From the NCBI GenBank assembly GCA_903844845.1, contig CAIMVG010000028.1, positions 1 to 45,610 of the forward strand: a stretch of DNA of 45,610 nucleotides, read 5' to 3'. The first letter of the stretch is position 1, and each line of letters starts with the position of its first letter. A program made the translations under genes and the position numbers. Below are positions 702-45,444 of this stretch, piece by piece. The notes under the pieces were generated by a model that saw only the letters and a list, made by a program, of their open reading frames with translations, had not been told where the DNA came from and did no database searches. Source of the DNA: an uncultured Dehalococcoidia bacterium (GTDB lineage: Bacteria; Chloroflexota; Dehalococcoidia; Dehalococcoidales; UBA1222).

Positions 702-1403
702 ATGTCATTACTGTCACGCAACAATGAAACCGAAAAAGTTCTGGTAGATGCCGCCCTGATCCCTGAGTTCGAAACAGCCACCTTCTCGATGGGTTGATTC
801 TGGGGTCCTGACTCCCGGTTCGGGAGTGAAAGCGGAGTGGTTCAGACCGTCGCAGGATATGCTGGAGGGACTTCAGTCAATCCGACTTATCATGACCTCG
901 ACGGGCACACCGAGACGACCCAGGTCCGTTATGTCCAGACGGTGATATCTTACGAGCGCTTGCTGGAGATCTTCTGGAGCGGGGTGGAGCCGACCGCCCG
1001 TATCTCGCGCCGCCAGTATGCCCAGATCCTCTTTTTCCATAACGCGGAACAACAGCGCCAGGCCGAAGAATCGAAACAGCGGCTCGAGGAAAGACTGAAA
1101 CGCAAGACAACGGTGGAAATCCTTCCGTTCAAGCGTTTCTATCCAGCGGAGGACTATCATCAGAAATACTATCTGCAGCAAAACAACCGCCTTATGCAGG
1201 AACTGAAGAACGCGTATCCCAAGACATCGGACCTGCTGGAGTCCACCGCGGCCGCCCGTTTGAACTCGTTTGTTTCGGGTTATCTTACTCTGGATAAATT
1301 GCGTAATGAACTGGGACACACTGATTTATTGCAGCCCGCCCAAGACGCTATCCTGGAAATCGCCTCCGGTACCATAATAACACCGGCGAACTGCTCTCTT
1401 TAA
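702..1403 (+). CDS. msrA: Peptide-methionine (S)-S-oxide reductase MsrA, probable selenoprotein (UGA = Sec32)
   Basis: MsrA reduces methionine-S-sulfoxide in proteins. The family signature GCFWG is present, but the Cys codon is TGA (795-797): ATFSMG-TGA-FWGPDSRFG. The frame then runs on through typical MsrA sequence: GYAGGT, NPTYHDL, DGHTE, QVRY, ISYERLLEIFW, the QYAQILFFHN region and FYPAEDYHQKYY. The frame is intact on both sides of the single TGA, and a hairpin follows at SECIS distance. Read through, the product is 233 residues with Sec at 32. The only cysteine is Cys231, third from the C-terminus, a plausible resolving partner. The start is uncertain: ATG 702 gives a natural MsrA N-terminus, while ATG 678 and TTG 606 are in frame upstream. 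No clear Shine-Dalgarno is visible. A strong terminator follows. No selA, selB, selC or selD is in the window. The alternative is a nonsense-mutated pseudogene, less likely given the exact position of the TGA and the hairpin. Confidence 0.85.
795..827 (+). promoter_or_regulatory. Candidate bacterial SECIS element (UGA codon plus hairpin)
   Basis: UGA occupies 795-797. A perfect 7-bp stem follows: ACTCCCG at 811-817 pairs with CGGGAGT at 821-827, leaving a three-base loop GTT at 818-820. The loop guanine lies 21 bases past the UGA. Known bacterial SECIS elements have a short hairpin within the coding sequence, with a G at the start of the loop roughly 16-37 bases downstream of UGA, where SelB binds. 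The fit is structural only. No SelB gene is visible here. Confidence 0.75.
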
Positions 1404-1415
1404 CATCAATACGTG

Positions 1416-1455
1416 AAAATGGGGCTGGACAGCACATCCAGCCCCATTTTGTTGT
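1416..1455 (+). terminator. Rho-independent terminator after msrA
   Basis: GGGGCTGGA (1421-1429) pairs with TCCAGCCCC (1437-1445). The stem is extended by AAAAT/ATTTT to 14 bp, with a seven-base loop and a T-rich tail. It lies just after the msrA stop at 1403. Confidence 0.85.
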
Positions 1456-5395: not shown

Positions 5396-5540
5396 AACTA
5401 AAGAGGCCTCTTCGGTTTTCAACACTTGAAGCCTATAAGTGTGCTTGACGCGGGGCGTATACTTAAACATCCTGGGCGTATTTTCGTTGCGATGGAGGTC
5501 CACGTTGCCAAACTCGAATTTAAAAAATAAACCCCTGAAC

Positions 5541-6200
5541 ATGAAACCTGCCGCGAGATTGTTCCTGATTTTTGCGCTTGTAATTTCATTGGCCGCTGTC
5601 GGGTGCAGAAATGCTGACCAACAGGTTAATCAAACAGACCAGCCGGTGATGACGAATTCGATTGAGCATTTCATAAAGTTGCCTTTATGCAGGCAGGCTA
5701 CCGATTACACCTGTGGTGCAGCAGCGCTGCAATCGATCCTCTATTATTACGGCAATGAGTATGACGAGGGGACGTTAGCTGCTGACTTGAAAAGCGACCC
5801 GGACCTCGGGACAAATTATCGCAACATTATGGATTTTGCCGAGGCGCAAGGACTCCAGGCGGAAAGCCGCACAGACATGACAATCAATGACCTCGAAGCG
5901 GATGTACGCGCCGGCAAACCGGTAATCGTTGCCCTGCAAGCCTGGTCCGAAAACCCCGACACCTACTCGGATGATTGGAACGACGGGCATTACGCTGTGG
6001 TGGTGGGATATGACAATAACCGGATTTACTTTATGGATCCGCTCCAGCTTGGCAATTATACCTACATCATTACTTCAGAATTCCTGGCCAGGTGGCATGA
6101 CACTGACAACGACAACGTGACCGTGCTGAATCATTTTGGGGTTGTTATCTGGGGTGATAAATCCGGCTACGATCCCTCCATTGTGATTGCGTTAGGATAA
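5541..6200 (+). CDS. Lipoprotein with C39-like cysteine peptidase domain
   Basis: 219 residues from ATG 5541. The signal peptide MKPAARLFLIFALVISLA ends in a lipobox, AAVGC, giving lipidated Cys22. The mature part has the papain-like C39-type layout: Q52-ATDYTCGAAAL with nucleophile Cys58, GHYAVVVGYD with His150, and MDP with Asp166. C39 domains cleave after double-glycine leaders in bacteriocin exporters, but stand-alone lipoproteins of this kind have unknown substrates. An upstream in-frame extension from 5439 has no signal logic and was not used. A caspase-like exported protein follows 82 bases downstream on the same strand. Confidence 0.75.
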   Translation: MKPAARLFLIFALVISLAAVGCRNADQQVNQTDQPVMTNSIEHFIKLPLCRQATDYTCGAAALQSILYYYGNEYDEGTLAADLKSDPDLGTNYRNIMDFAEAQGLQAESRTDMTINDLEADVRAGKPVIVALQAWSENPDTYSDDWNDGHYAVVVGYDNNRIYFMDPLQLGNYTYIITSEFLARWHDTDNDNVTVLNHFGVVIWGDKSGYDPSIVIALG

Positions 6201-6282
6201 CATTCCTCTTGATTTCCGTCCCGCGGTGGGTATAATAGGGTTTGGTATTTGATAATTTGACTGACCGATACGGAGGGATTAG

Positions 6283-7065
6283 ATGAAGAGAAAACTGGCG
6301 CTGGCTTGTACACTCCTTCTGGCAGTTTTTATTGCCCTTCCCGTGGTACCCGTAACGGCAAGGCAGGGTGTTGCCACGGGCAATCCGATTCCTACTGCCG
6401 GGAAAGTTTACGCACTTGTAATAGGGATCAATACTTACCCCGGTCATGCTCTTAACTATTGCGTCGCGGATGCAGATGCCTTCGCAGCGATGGTACTTGA
6501 TAAGGAACCATCTGCCAGGGTTGTAAAACTGGAAAATGGAAACGCAATCAAAAAGAACATAATGGGCGCCTTAACCGCTTTACAGAACGACGTCCGGTCG
6601 AGCGATGACGTCATCATCTACTATAGCGGCCACGGCACCAACGGATTCAAAGGGCAAAGCGGTATCGTGGCTTACGATGGAGTTAGCGGTGGCTCCGGCG
6701 TTATTTGGAGCAGTGAACTCGGAGCTGCTATCAGCAATATTCACGCAAAAAGGATTGCGGTGATGCTGGACTGCTGCTACGGCAACGGCTTCGCAGGCGA
6801 TCTTAACCTTCCCGGGGTGTTGGCTATGATGTCGTCCGCTGGCTTGTCTGGCGAAACTGCTTTGTTCGGGCATGGCGTCTTTACCTACTGGTTATTGGGA
6901 CAGGGAATGGTGAATGGACTTGCCGATAAGGTCGGTGCCAACACCTATGCCTTGCCCGACGGCAAAATACCTTTCGAAGAAGCCTTCGACTATGCTTTCC
7001 AGAATATGACCGGGCAGAAGCCCAAAGTGGTTGATAACGTAACCGGAGATTATTGGCTTAATTAA
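6283..7065 (+). CDS. Secreted caspase-fold (C14) protein
   Basis: 260 residues. A signal peptide covers about 1-27 (MKRKLALACTLLLAVFIALP ... VTA). The peptidase C14 core follows: YALVIGINTY (43-52), DVIIYYSGHG with catalytic His117, and VMLDCCYGNG with candidate nucleophile Cys165. The usual D-x-C-H-S-G is replaced by Cys-Tyr-Gly after Asp163. Bacterial orthocaspases cleave after Arg or Lys. This one appears to act outside the membrane. An AGGGA near 6275 serves ATG 6283. No partner domain is fused. It is parallel to the C39-like lipoprotein, so both may belong to one exported proteolysis unit. Confidence 0.8.
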   Translation: MKRKLALACTLLLAVFIALPVVPVTARQGVATGNPIPTAGKVYALVIGINTYPGHALNYCVADADAFAAMVLDKEPSARVVKLENGNAIKKNIMGALTALQNDVRSSDDVIIYYSGHGTNGFKGQSGIVAYDGVSGGSGVIWSSELGAAISNIHAKRIAVMLDCCYGNGFAGDLNLPGVLAMMSSAGLSGETALFGHGVFTYWLLGQGMVNGLADKVGANTYALPDGKIPFEEAFDYAFQNMTGQKPKVVDNVTGDYWLN

Positions 7066-25452: not shown

Positions 25453-26652
25453 ATGCTGGACTTGAGCCGTGTAGCCGGACAAATCGGAGAGATGATTGGC
25501 CAGCTCAAAGCCGGTGGGCAGGAGAGGCAGGAACACCTTGTCCGCGCACTCACTTTGCTGGTTGATAGGGCTATCGACTTCGAAACACTGAAACGTAAAG
25601 CCTCGCAGAGCAAAACTACCTTCCTTGTGGCCGGGTTGGTCGAGCCACTTGGCTCGCATGTACCTCCAGGAGCAATACCTTCGGATTTCAGCATAATCGC
25701 CACCGACGGGTCTCAAATAGACGTCGATAGGCATCAATCCGCGCGCTGCTATCTCATCAACATAGGCCGTGTACGCCTGGATTACGGGAGTGATTCAGGC
25801 GCAGAGCTTCAAAGCCTGCCTCAACTCTGCGCCGATTCCAAGGACCTGGTCATATCAAGCGGAACAAAAGAGCAGGTCGTCGAAGGTGCGCTTCTGAATA
25901 TCAAGCGCTCCGTAGACGAATGCCGCCACCTCGCAGACATGGCTGCCGAACTGCCCAAAGACAGGCCCGCACTCGCCGTGATCGATGGCTCTCTCATACT
26001 CTGGGGATTATCAAGCAAAGAATATCCCGATTTTGTCGTCGAGCAGCTTCTGGATAAAGGGTTCATTAAATGCCTGGACGACATGCTGAAATTGGCACAG
26101 GAAAGGCCCCTCGCACTGTCCAGTTTTATCAGCTTTCCGCGTTCGACTGACGTGGTCAACGTGCTCCGTCTCGCAATCTGCCCCCACGAAACAGCCGACT
26201 GCGATAAATTCTGCGGAGAAATAAATATAGGGAAACGCGCCTGCGACGCCGTTTCCGGTATCCAGGACCGGGACCTTTTCGATAGCCTTCTTGGAGTCGG
26301 GGAGCGATCGGCCCTATTTACCAGCCAATCCAAAATAGTCAGAGAGAGTTACGGACGCCACAGGGTCAATTTCTTTTATATAAAGCTTGAGGATGAAATA
26401 GCCAGGGTTGAGATACCTGAGTGGGTCGCCAGGGACGCGGATAAACTCAGCTTGACCCACGCACTCCTGCTGGACCAGTGCCAGCGCGGACAAGGCTACC
26501 CCGCCGCTCTCTCTGAAGCGCATGAAGAAGCGGTGGTAACCGGAGCCGACCGTCGAAATTTTCTGCAATTGGTGGAGATATCCATGGCTGATGAGCACAT
26601 GCCGCAAACCACTTCCGCCAAGGCAAGGAGCAAAAACGCGAGGTGGCTTTGA
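25453..26652 (+). CDS. nurA: NurA-domain nuclease
   Basis: 399 residues. NurA is a 5'-3' DNA nuclease that works with the HerA pump in DNA end resection. The domain spans about residue 75 to the C-terminus. The first metal-binding aspartate is Asp85 in FSIIATDGSQID, followed by the central ALAVIDGSLILWGL with the second acidic residue. A helical N-terminal region (about 1-60) precedes it. The C-terminal segment (LLDQCQRGQGYPAALSEAHE) resembles the NurA end with its conserved histidine. It opens a three-gene operon with a HAS-barrel protein and HerA. Confidence 0.8.
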   Translation: MLDLSRVAGQIGEMIGQLKAGGQERQEHLVRALTLLVDRAIDFETLKRKASQSKTTFLVAGLVEPLGSHVPPGAIPSDFSIIATDGSQIDVDRHQSARCYLINIGRVRLDYGSDSGAELQSLPQLCADSKDLVISSGTKEQVVEGALLNIKRSVDECRHLADMAAELPKDRPALAVIDGSLILWGLSSKEYPDFVVEQLLDKGFIKCLDDMLKLAQERPLALSSFISFPRSTDVVNVLRLAICPHETADCDKFCGEINIGKRACDAVSGIQDRDLFDSLLGVGERSALFTSQSKIVRESYGRHRVNFFYIKLEDEIARVEIPEWVARDADKLSLTHALLLDQCQRGQGYPAALSEAHEEAVVTGADRRNFLQLVEISMADEHMPQTTSAKARSKNARWL

Positions 26653-26734
26653 AGACCGAACGCCCGATATTAATAATTATGTCTAGTTGACAGCGGGGTT
26701 TGCCCCTGCGCAACTGAATCAGTGAGGATACCAT

Positions 26735-27331
26735 ATGAACGAAACAAGCCAGCGCCTGGGAGAGGTGATAGAGGCATCGACAACGGGATTTACCGCACAG
26801 TGCTATGAACTCTATGACCTACCGCCCCTCGGGAGCCTGGTCAGGACGGGCGACAGTACAAATGGACTTTTCGCGGTCGTGTGCCACGCCGTCACCGAAG
26901 GGTTGGAGCCCGGCAGAAAACCGATAGCACGCGGCAAGGACGAACCGGACGAGGAATCAATATTCCAGTCCAACCCTCAACTCTCAAAATTACTCAGGAG
27001 CGAGTTTTCGACGCTGGTCGTCGGCCACAGGAAGGGGGGACGGATCCTCCAATACCTTCCCCCTCAACCGGCACGCATACACTCGTTCGTACACGCATGC
27101 ACTGCAGAAGAATCAAAGGACTTCGGCAGGACATTCGGATTTCTCAATATCCTATTAAACGCCAAAATCGAAACGCCAGCCGACGAATTGATCGCCGCCA
27201 CCCTCAGGATAATGGGGGCCTCTTATGCCGACCCGAGACCTTTCCTGATCGGTGCTGGCAAGGAACTGGCGAGCCTGCTGGGTGAGGATTATGGAAAACT
27301 GAAAGCCATCCTGGAAAGGATAAAACCATGA
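26735..27331 (+). CDS. HAS-barrel protein between nurA and herA
   Basis: 198 residues. The first about 65 residues (RLGEVIEASTTGFTAQCYEL ... PPLGSLVRTGDS ... LFAVVCHA) resemble the HAS-barrel that forms the N-terminal domain of HerA ATPases. The rest is helical and acidic with no ATPase motif. GAGG precedes ATG 26735, and its end overlaps the herA start by four bases (ATGA). It may be an adaptor that docks on HerA or caps NurA. That is inference from domain and coupling. Confidence 0.7.
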   Translation: MNETSQRLGEVIEASTTGFTAQCYELYDLPPLGSLVRTGDSTNGLFAVVCHAVTEGLEPGRKPIARGKDEPDEESIFQSNPQLSKLLRSEFSTLVVGHRKGGRILQYLPPQPARIHSFVHACTAEESKDFGRTFGFLNILLNAKIETPADELIAATLRIMGASYADPRPFLIGAGKELASLLGEDYGKLKAILERIKP

Positions 27332-28938
27332 ACGAAGACGTTAGATTGGGGTTGGTGGTTTCCGGGTCGCTGAGCGAGGGAGTGGCAGTAAGGCTCGACA
27401 GCAAGGCCTCCGTAGAAGACGTGGTAGTGGGACGCTACGTCACCATCGAGGGCAAGAGCCGCCGGTTCCTGGGAATGATAACCGATGTGAAGCTCGACGC
27501 CAGCGATGAACGCATGACTTTCGCGCCACCCGACCCCGGTGACACGTTTAGTGCCGAAATACTTTCCGGAACGAGCGCATACGGCTTGCTGACAGTAACC
27601 CCTTACCTAGTGATTGGAGGCGACTCGAAGGCGGTAGTCGAAGGACCCCAACCCGTCAAGACCATCCCCAGCCATTTTTCGCCGGTCGGGCTTTCGTCCG
27701 ACTCGGACATAGAACTCGTCTTTGGGAAAGAGGACGACAAGCGCTTCTGGATCGGTAATCCGCTGGACATGGAGACCAAGCTCTGCCTCAACCTCCCCGA
27801 ACTGGTCAAACGTTCCAACGGGATATTCGGAAAGAGCGGCACGGGAAAAACTTTCCTCACCCGCATCCTGCTCATCGGGATGCTACAGAAAAGCGCCTGT
27901 GTCAACCTTGTCTTCGACATGCACAGCGAGTACGGATGGGAAGGCTCAAGCGAAAAGGGCCGTAAGGTCAAAGCCCTGAAGCAGTTGTTTCCCACAAAAG
28001 TCTCTATCTTTTCGCTTGACGAAGAGAATGCCCGCAGAAGGCAGGTATCTACCGACTTCATCGTAAAGATAGGTTATGACGAAATCGAGCCCGAGGACAT
28101 GGCTCTGTTGCGCCAGACACTGAACCTGACAGATCTGGCCGTCGAGGCATGTTTCACCCTTCGCAAGCACTTCGGGCGCAACTGGATAAAAAGCACTCTC
28201 GAAATCGATGCAGGAGAGGAGAGCGAGGAACTGCTGAAAAGCCTCACCATACACGAGAGCAGCTTCCAGAGCCTCAAACGCGGGCTGGGCACCATCACCC
28301 GGTTATCTTTCATGCAGCCGCATGTGGAACAGAGAGCGGTGGACTTCGTGTTGAAGTACCTTCAACAGGGCACCAACGTGGTACTGGAGTTCGGGCGATA
28401 CACCGACATCACAGCTTACATACTGGTCGCCAACCTGCTGACACGCCGGATCTATTCGCAATACAGGGACCAGACAGAAAAAGCACTGGCAGAGGATACG
28501 AAACCGCCTGCTCCCCTCGTGATAACCATCGAAGAAGCACACAAATTTCTGAACCCTGAGGTAGCCTCGCAGACGATCTTCGGGACCATAGCCCGGGAGA
28601 TGCGCAAATACAACTGTACGCTGCTGGTCATCGACCAGAGGCCGTCCGGAATAGACTCCGAGGTCATGAGTCAACTGGGAACCAAGATAACCTGCCTCCT
28701 GGATAACGAAAAGGACATCGACAGCGTGCTGGCAGGCATCTCCGGTAAAAATGAGCTGAAAGGCGTTCTGGCCAAACTGGCTTCCAAACAGCAGGCACTG
28801 GTCTTCGGCCACGCCGTACCTATGCCGGTTGCATTCAGCCCGAGGGAATACGGTTCACGCGAATCGTACAAAGATTTTACACCCGCAGAGACAAGTCCGA
28901 GGGAGGTTGAGAAAAACATCGATGAGTTGTGGCGATGA
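27328..28938 (+). CDS. herA: HerA-type hexameric DNA-pump ATPase
   Basis: 536 residues. A HAS-barrel opens the protein (about 4-100). The FtsK/HerA-type RecA core has Walker A IFGKSGTGKT (to residue 175), a DMHSEYGWEG strand, Walker B LVITIEEAHKF (about 393-403) and the LVIDQRPSGID sensor segment, which is typical of HerA. HerA feeds DNA to NurA. The gene ends the operon. No Mre11/Rad50 pair is nearby. Stand-alone HerA/NurA-like pairs also serve anti-phage roles, but the genes here sit in housekeeping context. Confidence 0.85.
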   Translation: MNEDVRLGLVVSGSLSEGVAVRLDSKASVEDVVVGRYVTIEGKSRRFLGMITDVKLDASDERMTFAPPDPGDTFSAEILSGTSAYGLLTVTPYLVIGGDSKAVVEGPQPVKTIPSHFSPVGLSSDSDIELVFGKEDDKRFWIGNPLDMETKLCLNLPELVKRSNGIFGKSGTGKTFLTRILLIGMLQKSACVNLVFDMHSEYGWEGSSEKGRKVKALKQLFPTKVSIFSLDEENARRRQVSTDFIVKIGYDEIEPEDMALLRQTLNLTDLAVEACFTLRKHFGRNWIKSTLEIDAGEESEELLKSLTIHESSFQSLKRGLGTITRLSFMQPHVEQRAVDFVLKYLQQGTNVVLEFGRYTDITAYILVANLLTRRIYSQYRDQTEKALAEDTKPPAPLVITIEEAHKFLNPEVASQTIFGTIAREMRKYNCTLLVIDQRPSGIDSEVMSQLGTKITCLLDNEKDIDSVLAGISGKNELKGVLAKLASKQQALVFGHAVPMPVAFSPREYGSRESYKDFTPAETSPREVEKNIDELWR

Positions 28939-42294: not shown

Positions 42295-45200
42295 TTATGC
42301 CGCCGCGTACACGCTGCGACCAGCGCCGTAGTAAGCATCGTAGATATGCTGAAACACTGCGGTGGCCTTTTGCTCGAATAGTGCCGGTGTATAAACCTTT
42401 GGCAAACCCCGGTCCAGCAGTTTCTCGATAGTGACTCTTACCTCAGCCCTGGCCTGTTGCCGCTTGCGCCAATCGAGCACCAGTTTGCTGGCTTTAAGGG
42501 TATTCAGCAGCTCTCGGGCAGTAGCTTTGACCTTGTCCCGTTCGGCTTCAGTCATCTCAATTTGAGGTTTGGTCAGGAGGTCGAAGAGGGCCAGTTCCTC
42601 CTCGTTCAGTTGTTCCCCCACACCCCGCTTCTCTTCCTCGTTCAAACTTCGGGCAAAGACCATCAGTTGCTGGAAGAACTCCTCAGCGTTGAGGCTGCCC
42701 GCGTTGTAGTCGTCGATCATAGCCTGGAAGCGTTCGAGATAATCCATGCGCGTGCGGTTGAGCCGCACCATAGCCATGAGCTTCTGCGCCACCGTAGCTT
42801 TGAGTTTTTCGTTCATGGTGCGCTGGTGGCCCGTCTTGAACTTGTCGGCCAGTTTCTCGAAGTCAATCTGGCTGAGGTCAATCCAGCGTCCGTCGTCGTA
42901 AGGCTCGTTTGCCTCGCGGATTATGTAACCCTCGGTGGCGATGGAGCGGTCAAGCAGCCCCTCCACCTGTTGCATGACCAGAGAGATATCCGCCGGAGGA
43001 ACGAGCGCGCGGATCGTGTCGGCGATGATCTGTATGGGCGTCAACTCTATTCCAAACTCCTGTGCCGATGGATCAGGCAGCACGGCTTTGTAGAGACGCT
43101 GTACAGTATTAGCCAGATCGAGATACCGGCGCTTGATATCTTCAGAGGCCACCAGAGCCTCAACGGCGTCATCTAGCAAGCCGACGCGGGCAAATCCACT
43201 GGCGCTCTGAATGGCCGCCAGATTCACGCCACGTTCCCGGCAGAAGACGCGTGTCTCCTCCAATGAATGCCTTAGCGCTGCCACCAGCGCTGACTTATCC
43301 TCCACGGGCTTGTCGCCGCCGTGGCCCGCGCCGTAAATGGCCAGCGCCTGCTCCAGGTTGCGGAAAACTCCGGCATAATCCACGATCAGTCCGCTCACCT
43401 TGCCGGGATAGACCCGGTTGGCCCGGGCAATGGTCTGCATGAGCGTATGGTTGCGCATGGGCTTATCCAGGTAAAGCGTCGAACAGCTCGGTGCGTCGAA
43501 GCCGGTCATCCACATGGCGCAGACAAAAACCAAACGGAAGGGGTCCTCGGGTTTCTTGAACTTCGTCTCCAGGTCTTCTTCTACCATGCGCTTGCGGTGA
43601 GGCCGGATATCCAGCCCCTTCTCAGCCATGTCGGCAATCTCGTTCTGCCCCTGCGAAACCACCACTGCCATATCGGTTTCTTTCATGCGGGCGATGCTAT
43701 CTGCAATCTCTTGCCGTGCTTCGCCATTCGCACTGGCCTGTTCCGCCTCCAAAGCCGCTATTTTCGCCGCCCAGTACTTCTTAACCTTGTCATACATGCG
43801 GATGGCCGTGGCCTTGTCGATACTGATCATCATGGCCTTGCCCTGAAAGCCACGCCCCGTGAAATGCTCCACCAGGTCTTTGGCCACCGCCTCCAGACGG
43901 GCATCGCGTGTGATCAGGTGGTATTCGCGGGCAAATTCGCGCTCAAGCTTCTTCTCCTGGGCCTCGTCCAGTTCCGCCTCTTCCAGCAGGCGCTCCATGT
44001 CCTCGTTGAGGCTGGTGTTGACCAGTTGCAGTTCCGGGATGCGGTTTTCGTAGTAGAGCGGCACCGTAGCGCCGTCAGCCACTGACTGCTGGAAATCATA
44101 GACGCTGATGTAATCCCCGAAGACCTGCCGCGTCTTTTCCTCGCCAACGATCAGCGGCGTGCCGGTGAAGGCAAGGAAAGCCGCATTGGGCAGGGTCGTG
44201 CGCATGTTCAGCGCCAGAGTGTCGTACTGGCTGCGGTGCGCTTCATCGGTAATGACGATGATATCACTCCGTTCGGAAAGAACCGGGTGGGTCTCGCCCT
44301 TGTCGGTGCGAAACTTTTGAACCAGCGTAAAGACATAGCGGTGATCCTCAGTAAGCAACTGCCGAAGGTGTTTGCTGCTTTCCGCCTGGGCGTGGGCTTC
44401 GGTTACAACGCCTGCCGAGGCGAAATGCTTGTAGATCTGCCCGTCCAGTTCCTGCCGGTCGGTGACCACCACAAATGTCCAGTTCCCCGGCACCTTGCGC
44501 AGCACTTTCTGGGCGAAGAACATCATCGCCACACTCTTGCCGCTGCCCTGCGTATGCCAGAACACCCCCAGCTTGCCGTTCCGTTGTCGAATATTGGCCA
44601 GGGCTTCCAGTGCATTATTAACGCCCAGGTACTGATGGTTCTTGGCTGTCAGCTTGACTAGTCCGCTTTGGACTTCCTGAAACAGAATGAAGTTCTCCAC
44701 CAGATCCAGCAAACGCACAGGGTCGCATACACCGCGCAACATGGTTTCCAGAGACACCCGGCCAGCCTCGTCCTCACTGCCCACTTTTTTCCATTCGGCG
44801 AAGTGCTCCCATCCAGCGGTGACGCTGCCCACACGGCTTTGGCTGCCGTTGGAGACGATAATGAGGGCGTTGGGCCAGAAAAGCTGAGGCACGGTATCCT
44901 TGTAATCACGCAAGTTGCCGGCGAAGGCGGTCTCCAGACGGCGGTGGGTGGCCTTCAGTTCAATGAATACCAGAGGCAATCCGTTTACAAAGCCCACAAG
45001 GTCGGCCCGCCGGGTGTACATCTCCCCGGTGACCCAGAACTGGGAACAGAGCAGAAAGTCATTGTTGCCAGGGTCGCCCCAATCGATCACCCGCACCACT
45101 TCAACAGTCTCGCCGTCCCCGGCGGGATCCTGTATGGGGATGCGCACGTCGTTCTTGAGCAATTGATAAATCTCGCGGTTGGCGGCCACCATGCTCATGC

Positions 45201-45444
45201 GCGAGCGGTCGCGGGTCAGTTCCTCGATGGCCTGATTGATGGCTTCAAGTGAGGCGTCCGGGTTAAGCCGCTGCAAGGCCGGGCGCAGGCGAGCGGTAAG
45301 GATAACCTCGGCGCGGGTCTCGCGGCCAAGTGTGCTGGCGCCGTGGTCGAACTCGTGATAGGCGTCGACTGTCTCCCAGCCCAACTCCGCCATCAGGGCG
45401 ATGGCCGGTTGTTCAACCAATGCGTCTTCGGTGTAATCAGACAC
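42295..45444 (-). CDS. hsdR: Type I restriction enzyme R subunit HsdR
   Basis: 1049 residues from GTG 45444, AAGGGG upstream. HsdR supplies translocation and cleavage to a type I restriction-modification complex. The N-terminal nuclease has ADLVGFVNGLPLVFIELKATH, with the E-x-K pair at 162-164. The SF2 motor has Walker A HTQGSGKSVAM (299-304), TDRQELDGQI, DEAHRSQYD (400-408) and AFTGTPL, then MWMTGFDAPSCSTLYLDKP and a helical C-terminal part that binds the methylase. hsdM and hsdS would lie upstream, beyond the window edge. The gene is GC-rich like the chromosome. A 1.9 kb non-coding gap separates it from the last small operon. Confidence 0.95.
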   Translation of the reverse strand: MSDYTEDALVEQPAIALMAELGWETVDAYHEFDHGASTLGRETRAEVILTARLRPALQRLNPDASLEAINQAIEELTRDRSRMSMVAANREIYQLLKNDVRIPIQDPAGDGETVEVVRVIDWGDPGNNDFLLCSQFWVTGEMYTRRADLVGFVNGLPLVFIELKATHRRLETAFAGNLRDYKDTVPQLFWPNALIIVSNGSQSRVGSVTAGWEHFAEWKKVGSEDEAGRVSLETMLRGVCDPVRLLDLVENFILFQEVQSGLVKLTAKNHQYLGVNNALEALANIRQRNGKLGVFWHTQGSGKSVAMMFFAQKVLRKVPGNWTFVVVTDRQELDGQIYKHFASAGVVTEAHAQAESSKHLRQLLTEDHRYVFTLVQKFRTDKGETHPVLSERSDIIVITDEAHRSQYDTLALNMRTTLPNAAFLAFTGTPLIVGEEKTRQVFGDYISVYDFQQSVADGATVPLYYENRIPELQLVNTSLNEDMERLLEEAELDEAQEKKLEREFAREYHLITRDARLEAVAKDLVEHFTGRGFQGKAMMISIDKATAIRMYDKVKKYWAAKIAALEAEQASANGEARQEIADSIARMKETDMAVVVSQGQNEIADMAEKGLDIRPHRKRMVEEDLETKFKKPEDPFRLVFVCAMWMTGFDAPSCSTLYLDKPMRNHTLMQTIARANRVYPGKVSGLIVDYAGVFRNLEQALAIYGAGHGGDKPVEDKSALVAALRHSLEETRVFCRERGVNLAAIQSASGFARVGLLDDAVEALVASEDIKRRYLDLANTVQRLYKAVLPDPSAQEFGIELTPIQIIADTIRALVPPADISLVMQQVEGLLDRSIATEGYIIREANEPYDDGRWIDLSQIDFEKLADKFKTGHQRTMNEKLKATVAQKLMAMVRLNRTRMDYLERFQAMIDDYNAGSLNAEEFFQQLMVFARSLNEEEKRGVGEQLNEEELALFDLLTKPQIEMTEAERDKVKATARELLNTLKASKLVLDWRKRQQARAEVRVTIEKLLDRGLPKVYTPALFEQKATAVFQHIYDAYYGAGRSVYAAA

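Follow-up and report, generated by a model that had tools for sequence, protein, structure and literature searches.

The msrA locus in the window, i.e., the whole stretch of 45,610 nucleotides analyzed here, raises the question whether a UGA codon at the catalytic position of a peptide-methionine sulfoxide reductase (MsrA) ends the gene or is read as selenocysteine (Sec). The frame runs from MSLLSRNN via TFSMG-U-FWGPDSRFGS to PANCSL and a TAA stop codon, and its sole in-frame TGA stands where the GCFWG motif has the catalytic Cys codon (Table 1). The protein read through this codon matched the Pfam family PMSR (PF01625) across the catalytic domain with 136.1 bits (cut-off 23.7, E = 1.6e-39) and the NCBIfam model msrA with 116 (cut-off 108.1). 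An earlier note on this DNA had described an intact MsrA frame with UGA in place of the catalytic Cys codon; the G-U-FWG motif and the PMSR match confirmed this. Judged from sequence comparisons, the UGA almost certainly encodes Sec, and it is very likely both that the product functions as an MsrA and that the gene is that of a Sec-containing peptide-methionine (S)-S-oxide reductase of the Clostridium oremlandii type.

Table 1. Features of the msrA locus (positions in the window).
Feature	Position	Strand	Basis
msrA gene for 233 aa, with UGA read through	702..1403	+	profile matches, same-genus alignment, dN/dS
UGA codon, Sec32, catalytic position of GUFWG	795..797	+	TGA in 83 of 87 aligned loci
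SECIS-like hairpin ACTCCCG-GTT-CGGGAGT	811..827	+	7-bp stem 811-817/821-827, loop 818-820
MsrA catalytic domain, about residues 22-160	765..1181	+	active-site match to C. oremlandii MsrA
Helical C-terminal domain with five helices predicted, about residues 161-223	1182..1370	+	as in C. oremlandii MsrA
Cys231 codon, disordered C-terminal tail, candidate resolving residue	1392..1394	+	inferred
Intrinsic-terminator-like hairpin, 14 pairs	1416..1450	+	downstream of msrA

The start at position 702 is backed by alignment with the gene from the same genus, in which a stop codon lies 4 codons upstream; a clear ribosome-binding site was not found. A lipoprotein signal in the upstream frame (FTTGC) was considered and ruled out by this stop. 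A lipoprotein-like signal precedes the MsrA domain in five relatives within the order (L025-L029) and is found neither in the window gene nor in the same-genus gene; the location of the enzyme therefore seems to vary within the order. Gene calling by stop codons yielded only an ORF of 188 amino acids (837-1403) beginning after the UGA, the headless protein that had been predicted for an ordinary gene caller, and the terminator-like hairpin reported behind the gene is also present. The window was scanned for further selenoprotein genes at 89 TGA codons flanked by long open stretches; only the codon in msrA joined a recognizable redox motif with a long hairpin.

Downstream of msrA and facing it, genes for FeMo-cofactor-domain and DUF134 proteins lie on the minus strand (1548-2480). 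Elsewhere in the window, a C39-like peptidase gene is followed by a caspase-domain (Peptidase_C14) gene (5439-7065), genes for NurA and a HerA-like protein lie close together (25453-28938), and HsdR, the R subunit of a type I restriction enzyme, is encoded on the minus strand (42295-45444). NurA and HerA form a pair for DNA-end resection that is known mainly from archaea. An interspersed repeat at 180-320 has 47 more matches to its parts elsewhere in the genome.

The genome was searched for selA, selB, selC and selD as the earlier note had proposed. The source is a metagenome assembly of 1.91 Mb, 97.9% complete, with msrA on contig C28. All four genes were found together on contig C7 as a compact cluster in the order selC-selD-selA-selB (L017:5736-10215), and an absence of selB and selC, which would have spoken against Sec, is thereby excluded. 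The tRNA-Sec gene selC, with the anticodon UCA, matched RF01852 with 70.8 bits, over the cut-off; SelD and SelB matched their profiles with 355.7 bits and 356.5 bits, the latter over the cut-off, and selA was recognized as the ORF between selD and selB. Furthermore, an in-frame TGA (SGUG) lies in selD itself and is followed by a stem-loop. At least two predicted selenoprotein genes are thus present besides msrA, encoding SelD (SGUG) and a glutaredoxin-PDZ protein (TUPYC). A genome-wide reassignment of UGA to Trp, Gly or Cys with no Sec insertion, known from some small-genome bacteria, is extremely improbable, being contradicted by the use of UGA as stop codon for 5 of the 18 long ORFs in the window, and also by the complete Sec system and by the occurrence of UGA at the catalytic redox position of three unrelated proteins (MsrA, SelD and glutaredoxin).

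Conservation of the codon was analyzed at increasing distance. Sec-type MsrA, each with one TGA, occurs in 7 of 61 genomes comprising the source genome and its genus, family and order, and the codon is TGA in six of the six relatives found in the order. SelB is present in 7/7 of the Sec-MsrA genomes versus 26/54 of the others (P = 0.0125, with genomes counted as independent). An apparent TGA match in one genome (G153, L128) turned out to be an ordinary Cys-MsrA with catalytic TGC. Additionally, the part of the protein after the Sec codon, a query that catches Cys and Sec forms alike, was searched against bacterial and archaeal genomes, one for each species. At least 568 stretches were confirmed; among the best 80, which lean toward the query so that the Sec fraction holds for that sample, 76 had TGA and 4 a Cys codon. 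Alignment with MsrA homologues, suggested earlier for detecting a Cys/Sec exchange, did reveal one: at the catalytic codon of 87 loci from many phyla, 83 had TGA, 2 TGC and 2 TGT. The loci with TGA include those of isolates such as Desulforamulus aeronauticus and Desulfosarcina alkanivorans.

Could the TGA still have arisen in an ordinary Cys-MsrA gene through a nonsense mutation or a base error? The source is a metagenome assembly, and TGC and TGT are only one base away from TGA. Such a pseudogene or sequencing error is nevertheless refuted by the conservation of TGA across independent genomes, since the 83 loci stem from independent assemblies including isolates, and we assign it practically no probability. 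Moreover, the codons after the TGA are under purifying selection, with a dN/dS of about 0.16 over 198 codons between msrA and the same-genus gene, and the stem of the hairpin covaries (see below). The earlier argument that a chance nonsense mutation is unlikely holds on the grounds of the shared TGA and of this selection.

The record titles of relatives among the matches listed name Chloroflexota, Nitrospirota, deltaproteobacteria, Synergistaceae and Bacillota, and further titles among these matches Acidobacteriota, Planctomycetota, Actinomycetes, Trueperaceae and others. Relatives with named records belong to the Dehalococcoidales/Dehalococcoidia of the Chloroflexota, which suggests the same placement for the source genome. 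The view that Sec-MsrA is rare in bacteria is too strong, as members of the subfamily occur in anaerobes from many phyla. In a quick tree, rooted by an outgroup and with many weak inner branches, a branch with 99% SH-aLRT separated the Sec-MsrA subfamily from ordinary Cys-MsrA. Six Cys forms, two of them haloarchaeal, were nested inside the subfamily, which fits a replacement of Sec by Cys. By its sequences, the subfamily looks mostly Sec-containing. The same tree hinted that the window gene had been acquired horizontally, but this was not upheld: a tree uniting all Dehalococcoidia has the better likelihood (p-AU 0.986).

The hairpin behind the UGA begins 14 nt past this codon, and its loop G at position 818 is base 24 if the U of the UGA is taken as base 1. 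The perfect 7-bp hairpin with a G-starting loop that had been reported is present, but taken alone it is weak evidence: a stem of equal length occurred at an allowed place in 2% of synonymous recodings, which is only modestly unusual, and the folding energy is ordinary (z = -0.69 and -0.30). The element becomes convincing because of the comparative data. Its conserved core comprises a 5-nt loop, RGUUY (817-821), on a stem of 5 bp (812-816/822-826). Among the 83 TGA loci, the wobble bases at hairpin positions 21, 24 and 30 are nearly fixed (C in 80, G in 81 and G in 81 loci, respectively), and Gly wobble bases outside the hairpin vary freely. At the pair 19-31, 49 loci have U-A and 18 have G-C; with loci counted as independent, the two bases are paired in 72 of 83, with 48 expected and a maximum of 64 in 5,000 shuffles. 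For the pair 18-32, which is C-G in 45, U-A in 12 and U-G in 10 loci, pairing was found in 70 of 83 (58 expected, maximum 66 in 5,000 shuffles, loci again counted as independent). In the four Cys-coding relatives the stem is broken. The hairpin thus shows compensatory changes and fits a putative bacterial SECIS with a loop G.

Together with the Sec gene cluster, the TGA in 83 of 87 loci and the purifying selection, this covariation upholds the main claim of the earlier note, a probable selenoprotein MsrA. Judging by the conserved elements, SelB with Sec-tRNA(Sec) would bind the hairpin and Sec would be placed at residue 32. Sec insertion is inefficient in general, and the UGA lies near the start of the gene; both would suit a partial decoding in which the UGA serves mainly as a selenium-dependent switch, with a 31-residue stub being made when selenium is short. 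We regard this as improbable, as the data contain no sign of a regulatory role and the stub has no known function. Such a switch is in any case compatible with the reading of the gene as Sec-MsrA.

Sec-MsrA with the GUFWG motif forms a family that already has a name and solved structures (PMC13188914, PMC4479559), and it is listed among the known prokaryotic selenoproteins (PMC13188914). AlphaFold modeled the window protein with a pLDDT of 90.8, a disordered start and tail, and five predicted helices at residues 162-223. By sequence (E = 7e-50) and by fold, the nearest solved structures are those of the MsrA from C. oremlandii OhILAs (CoMsrA; PDB 4lwj, 4lwk, 4lwl, 4lwm, 4u66); Foldseek superposed the predicted fold on 4lwj with an rmsd of 1.3 Å over 201 columns. 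Y63, E71, Q105, Y106 and H153 are invariant in 49 sequences, and Y156 is present in the window protein; Tyr, Glu, Gln-Tyr, His and Tyr are the active-site residues named for CoMsrA (PMC4333827). Common to both proteins are Sec in the G(U/C)FWG motif, the active-site residues and a fold of two domains, the C-terminal one being helical; among MsrA structures this helical domain is unique to CoMsrA, where it is needed for activity (PMC4333827, PMC4479559). They differ in phylum and share about 40% identity; furthermore, a 10-residue tail with Cys231 belongs to the window protein, whereas CoMsrA functions without any Cys (PMC4479559).

Ordinary Cys-MsrA (E. coli 1ff3, poplar 2j89; Chloroflexota loci L031-L037 and L120-L135) has the catalytic domain and the predicted reaction in common with the window protein. 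It differs by an active-site Cys and by a TGHAE-type insertion that precedes the catalytic Glu; its tail is a different one and holds the resolving Cys, the helical domain is missing, and it forms a separate branch in the tree. The MsrA proteins of the haloarchaea Natronorubrum bangense and Natrinema zhouii show the motif GCFWGPDA and the C-terminal extension of the Sec-MsrA subfamily; they differ in their Cys codon TGT, and their placement in the tree is unsure due to long branches.

In the catalytic reaction, Sec32 would attack the sulfur of methionine-S-sulfoxide, whereupon methionine would be released and the selenium left oxidized. Attack on the sulfoxide sulfur and release of methionine are established MsrA chemistry. 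The enzyme might then be recycled by a glutaredoxin, most plausibly the Sec-glutaredoxin-PDZ of the same genome, or via Cys231 in the tail, with a thiol reductant acting next.

The glutaredoxin-PDZ fusion with the motif TUPYC is encoded at L151:1495-2016, corresponding to contig C4:42870-43388, and thus on a contig separate from that of msrA. Its gene has a perfect 8-bp hairpin GUGAAAGA-GUU-UCUUUCAC 3' of the UGA, with the same GUU loop as in msrA. Full-length glutaredoxin-PDZ was found in 5/7 Sec-MsrA genomes versus 3/54 others (P = 0.0002, genomes counted as independent), and a UxxC motif with TGA was confirmed in six genomes (G000, which is the source assembly, G014, G031, G033, G035 and G048). 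The genes for msrA and glutaredoxin-PDZ adjoin in G031, where they are convergent and their matches end about 60 bases apart; they lie about 1.8 kb apart on one contig in G014 and about 9.4 kb apart on one contig in G048. The Sec-MsrA of C. oremlandii is reportedly reduced by a Sec-glutaredoxin (Kim et al. 2011, as cited in PMC13188914). We consider the chances about even that the Sec-glutaredoxin-PDZ protein is the reductant of the window enzyme. CoMsrA is reduced by glutaredoxin and not by thioredoxin, and Sec gives it a 20-fold gain (PMC4333827, PMC4479559). Additionally, the source genome has a Cys-type MsrB gene without internal stop, which completes the repair set.

The second route would make the window protein a Sec version of the 2-Cys MsrA, not a glutaredoxin-dependent 1-Cys type: Cys231 would resolve the oxidized Sec32, and thioredoxin would reduce the Se-S bond. 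It concerns the recycling step and leaves the identity of Sec untouched. Cys231 is the only Cys besides Sec32, and because of its presence the protein is not classed with the 1-Cys enzymes. In the last 12 residues, 27 of 90 subfamily members carry a Cys, which is mostly their sole other Cys and often part of CPL or CPVP; moreover, the tail is predicted to be flexible and the genome encodes three thioredoxins. On the other hand, the same-genus gene and 63 of the 90 members lack a tail Cys, and AlphaFold did not place the tail. As the same-genus gene lacks this residue and CoMsrA works without Cys (PMC4479559), the tail Cys cannot be essential for the family. Both Cys231 as resolving residue and recycling through the tail by thioredoxin are therefore proposed tentatively, with the balance somewhat against them. 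The wider proposal, that many Sec-MsrAs resolve selenium via a tail Cys and that the Dehalococcoidales enzyme forms a two-selenoprotein repair relay with its Sec-glutaredoxin-PDZ partner, is rather unlikely to hold in full.

Sec-MsrA is an already known enzyme type. Added here are its presence and conservation in Dehalococcoidales and the breadth of the subfamily, as well as the covariation in the SECIS, the Cys in the tail and the link to glutaredoxin-PDZ; a literature search, mostly of papers outside subscription, found no report of a tail Cys in Sec-MsrA or of the glutaredoxin-PDZ link. Since gene calling gives a headless ORF, MsrA may seem absent or broken in bacteria that possess it, and the same applies to the relatives. 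A mostly Sec-containing subfamily with nested Cys forms is a good case for studying the replacement of Sec by Cys alongside loss of the SECIS, and the link to a Sec-glutaredoxin offers a testable repair pathway in uncultured Dehalococcoidia.
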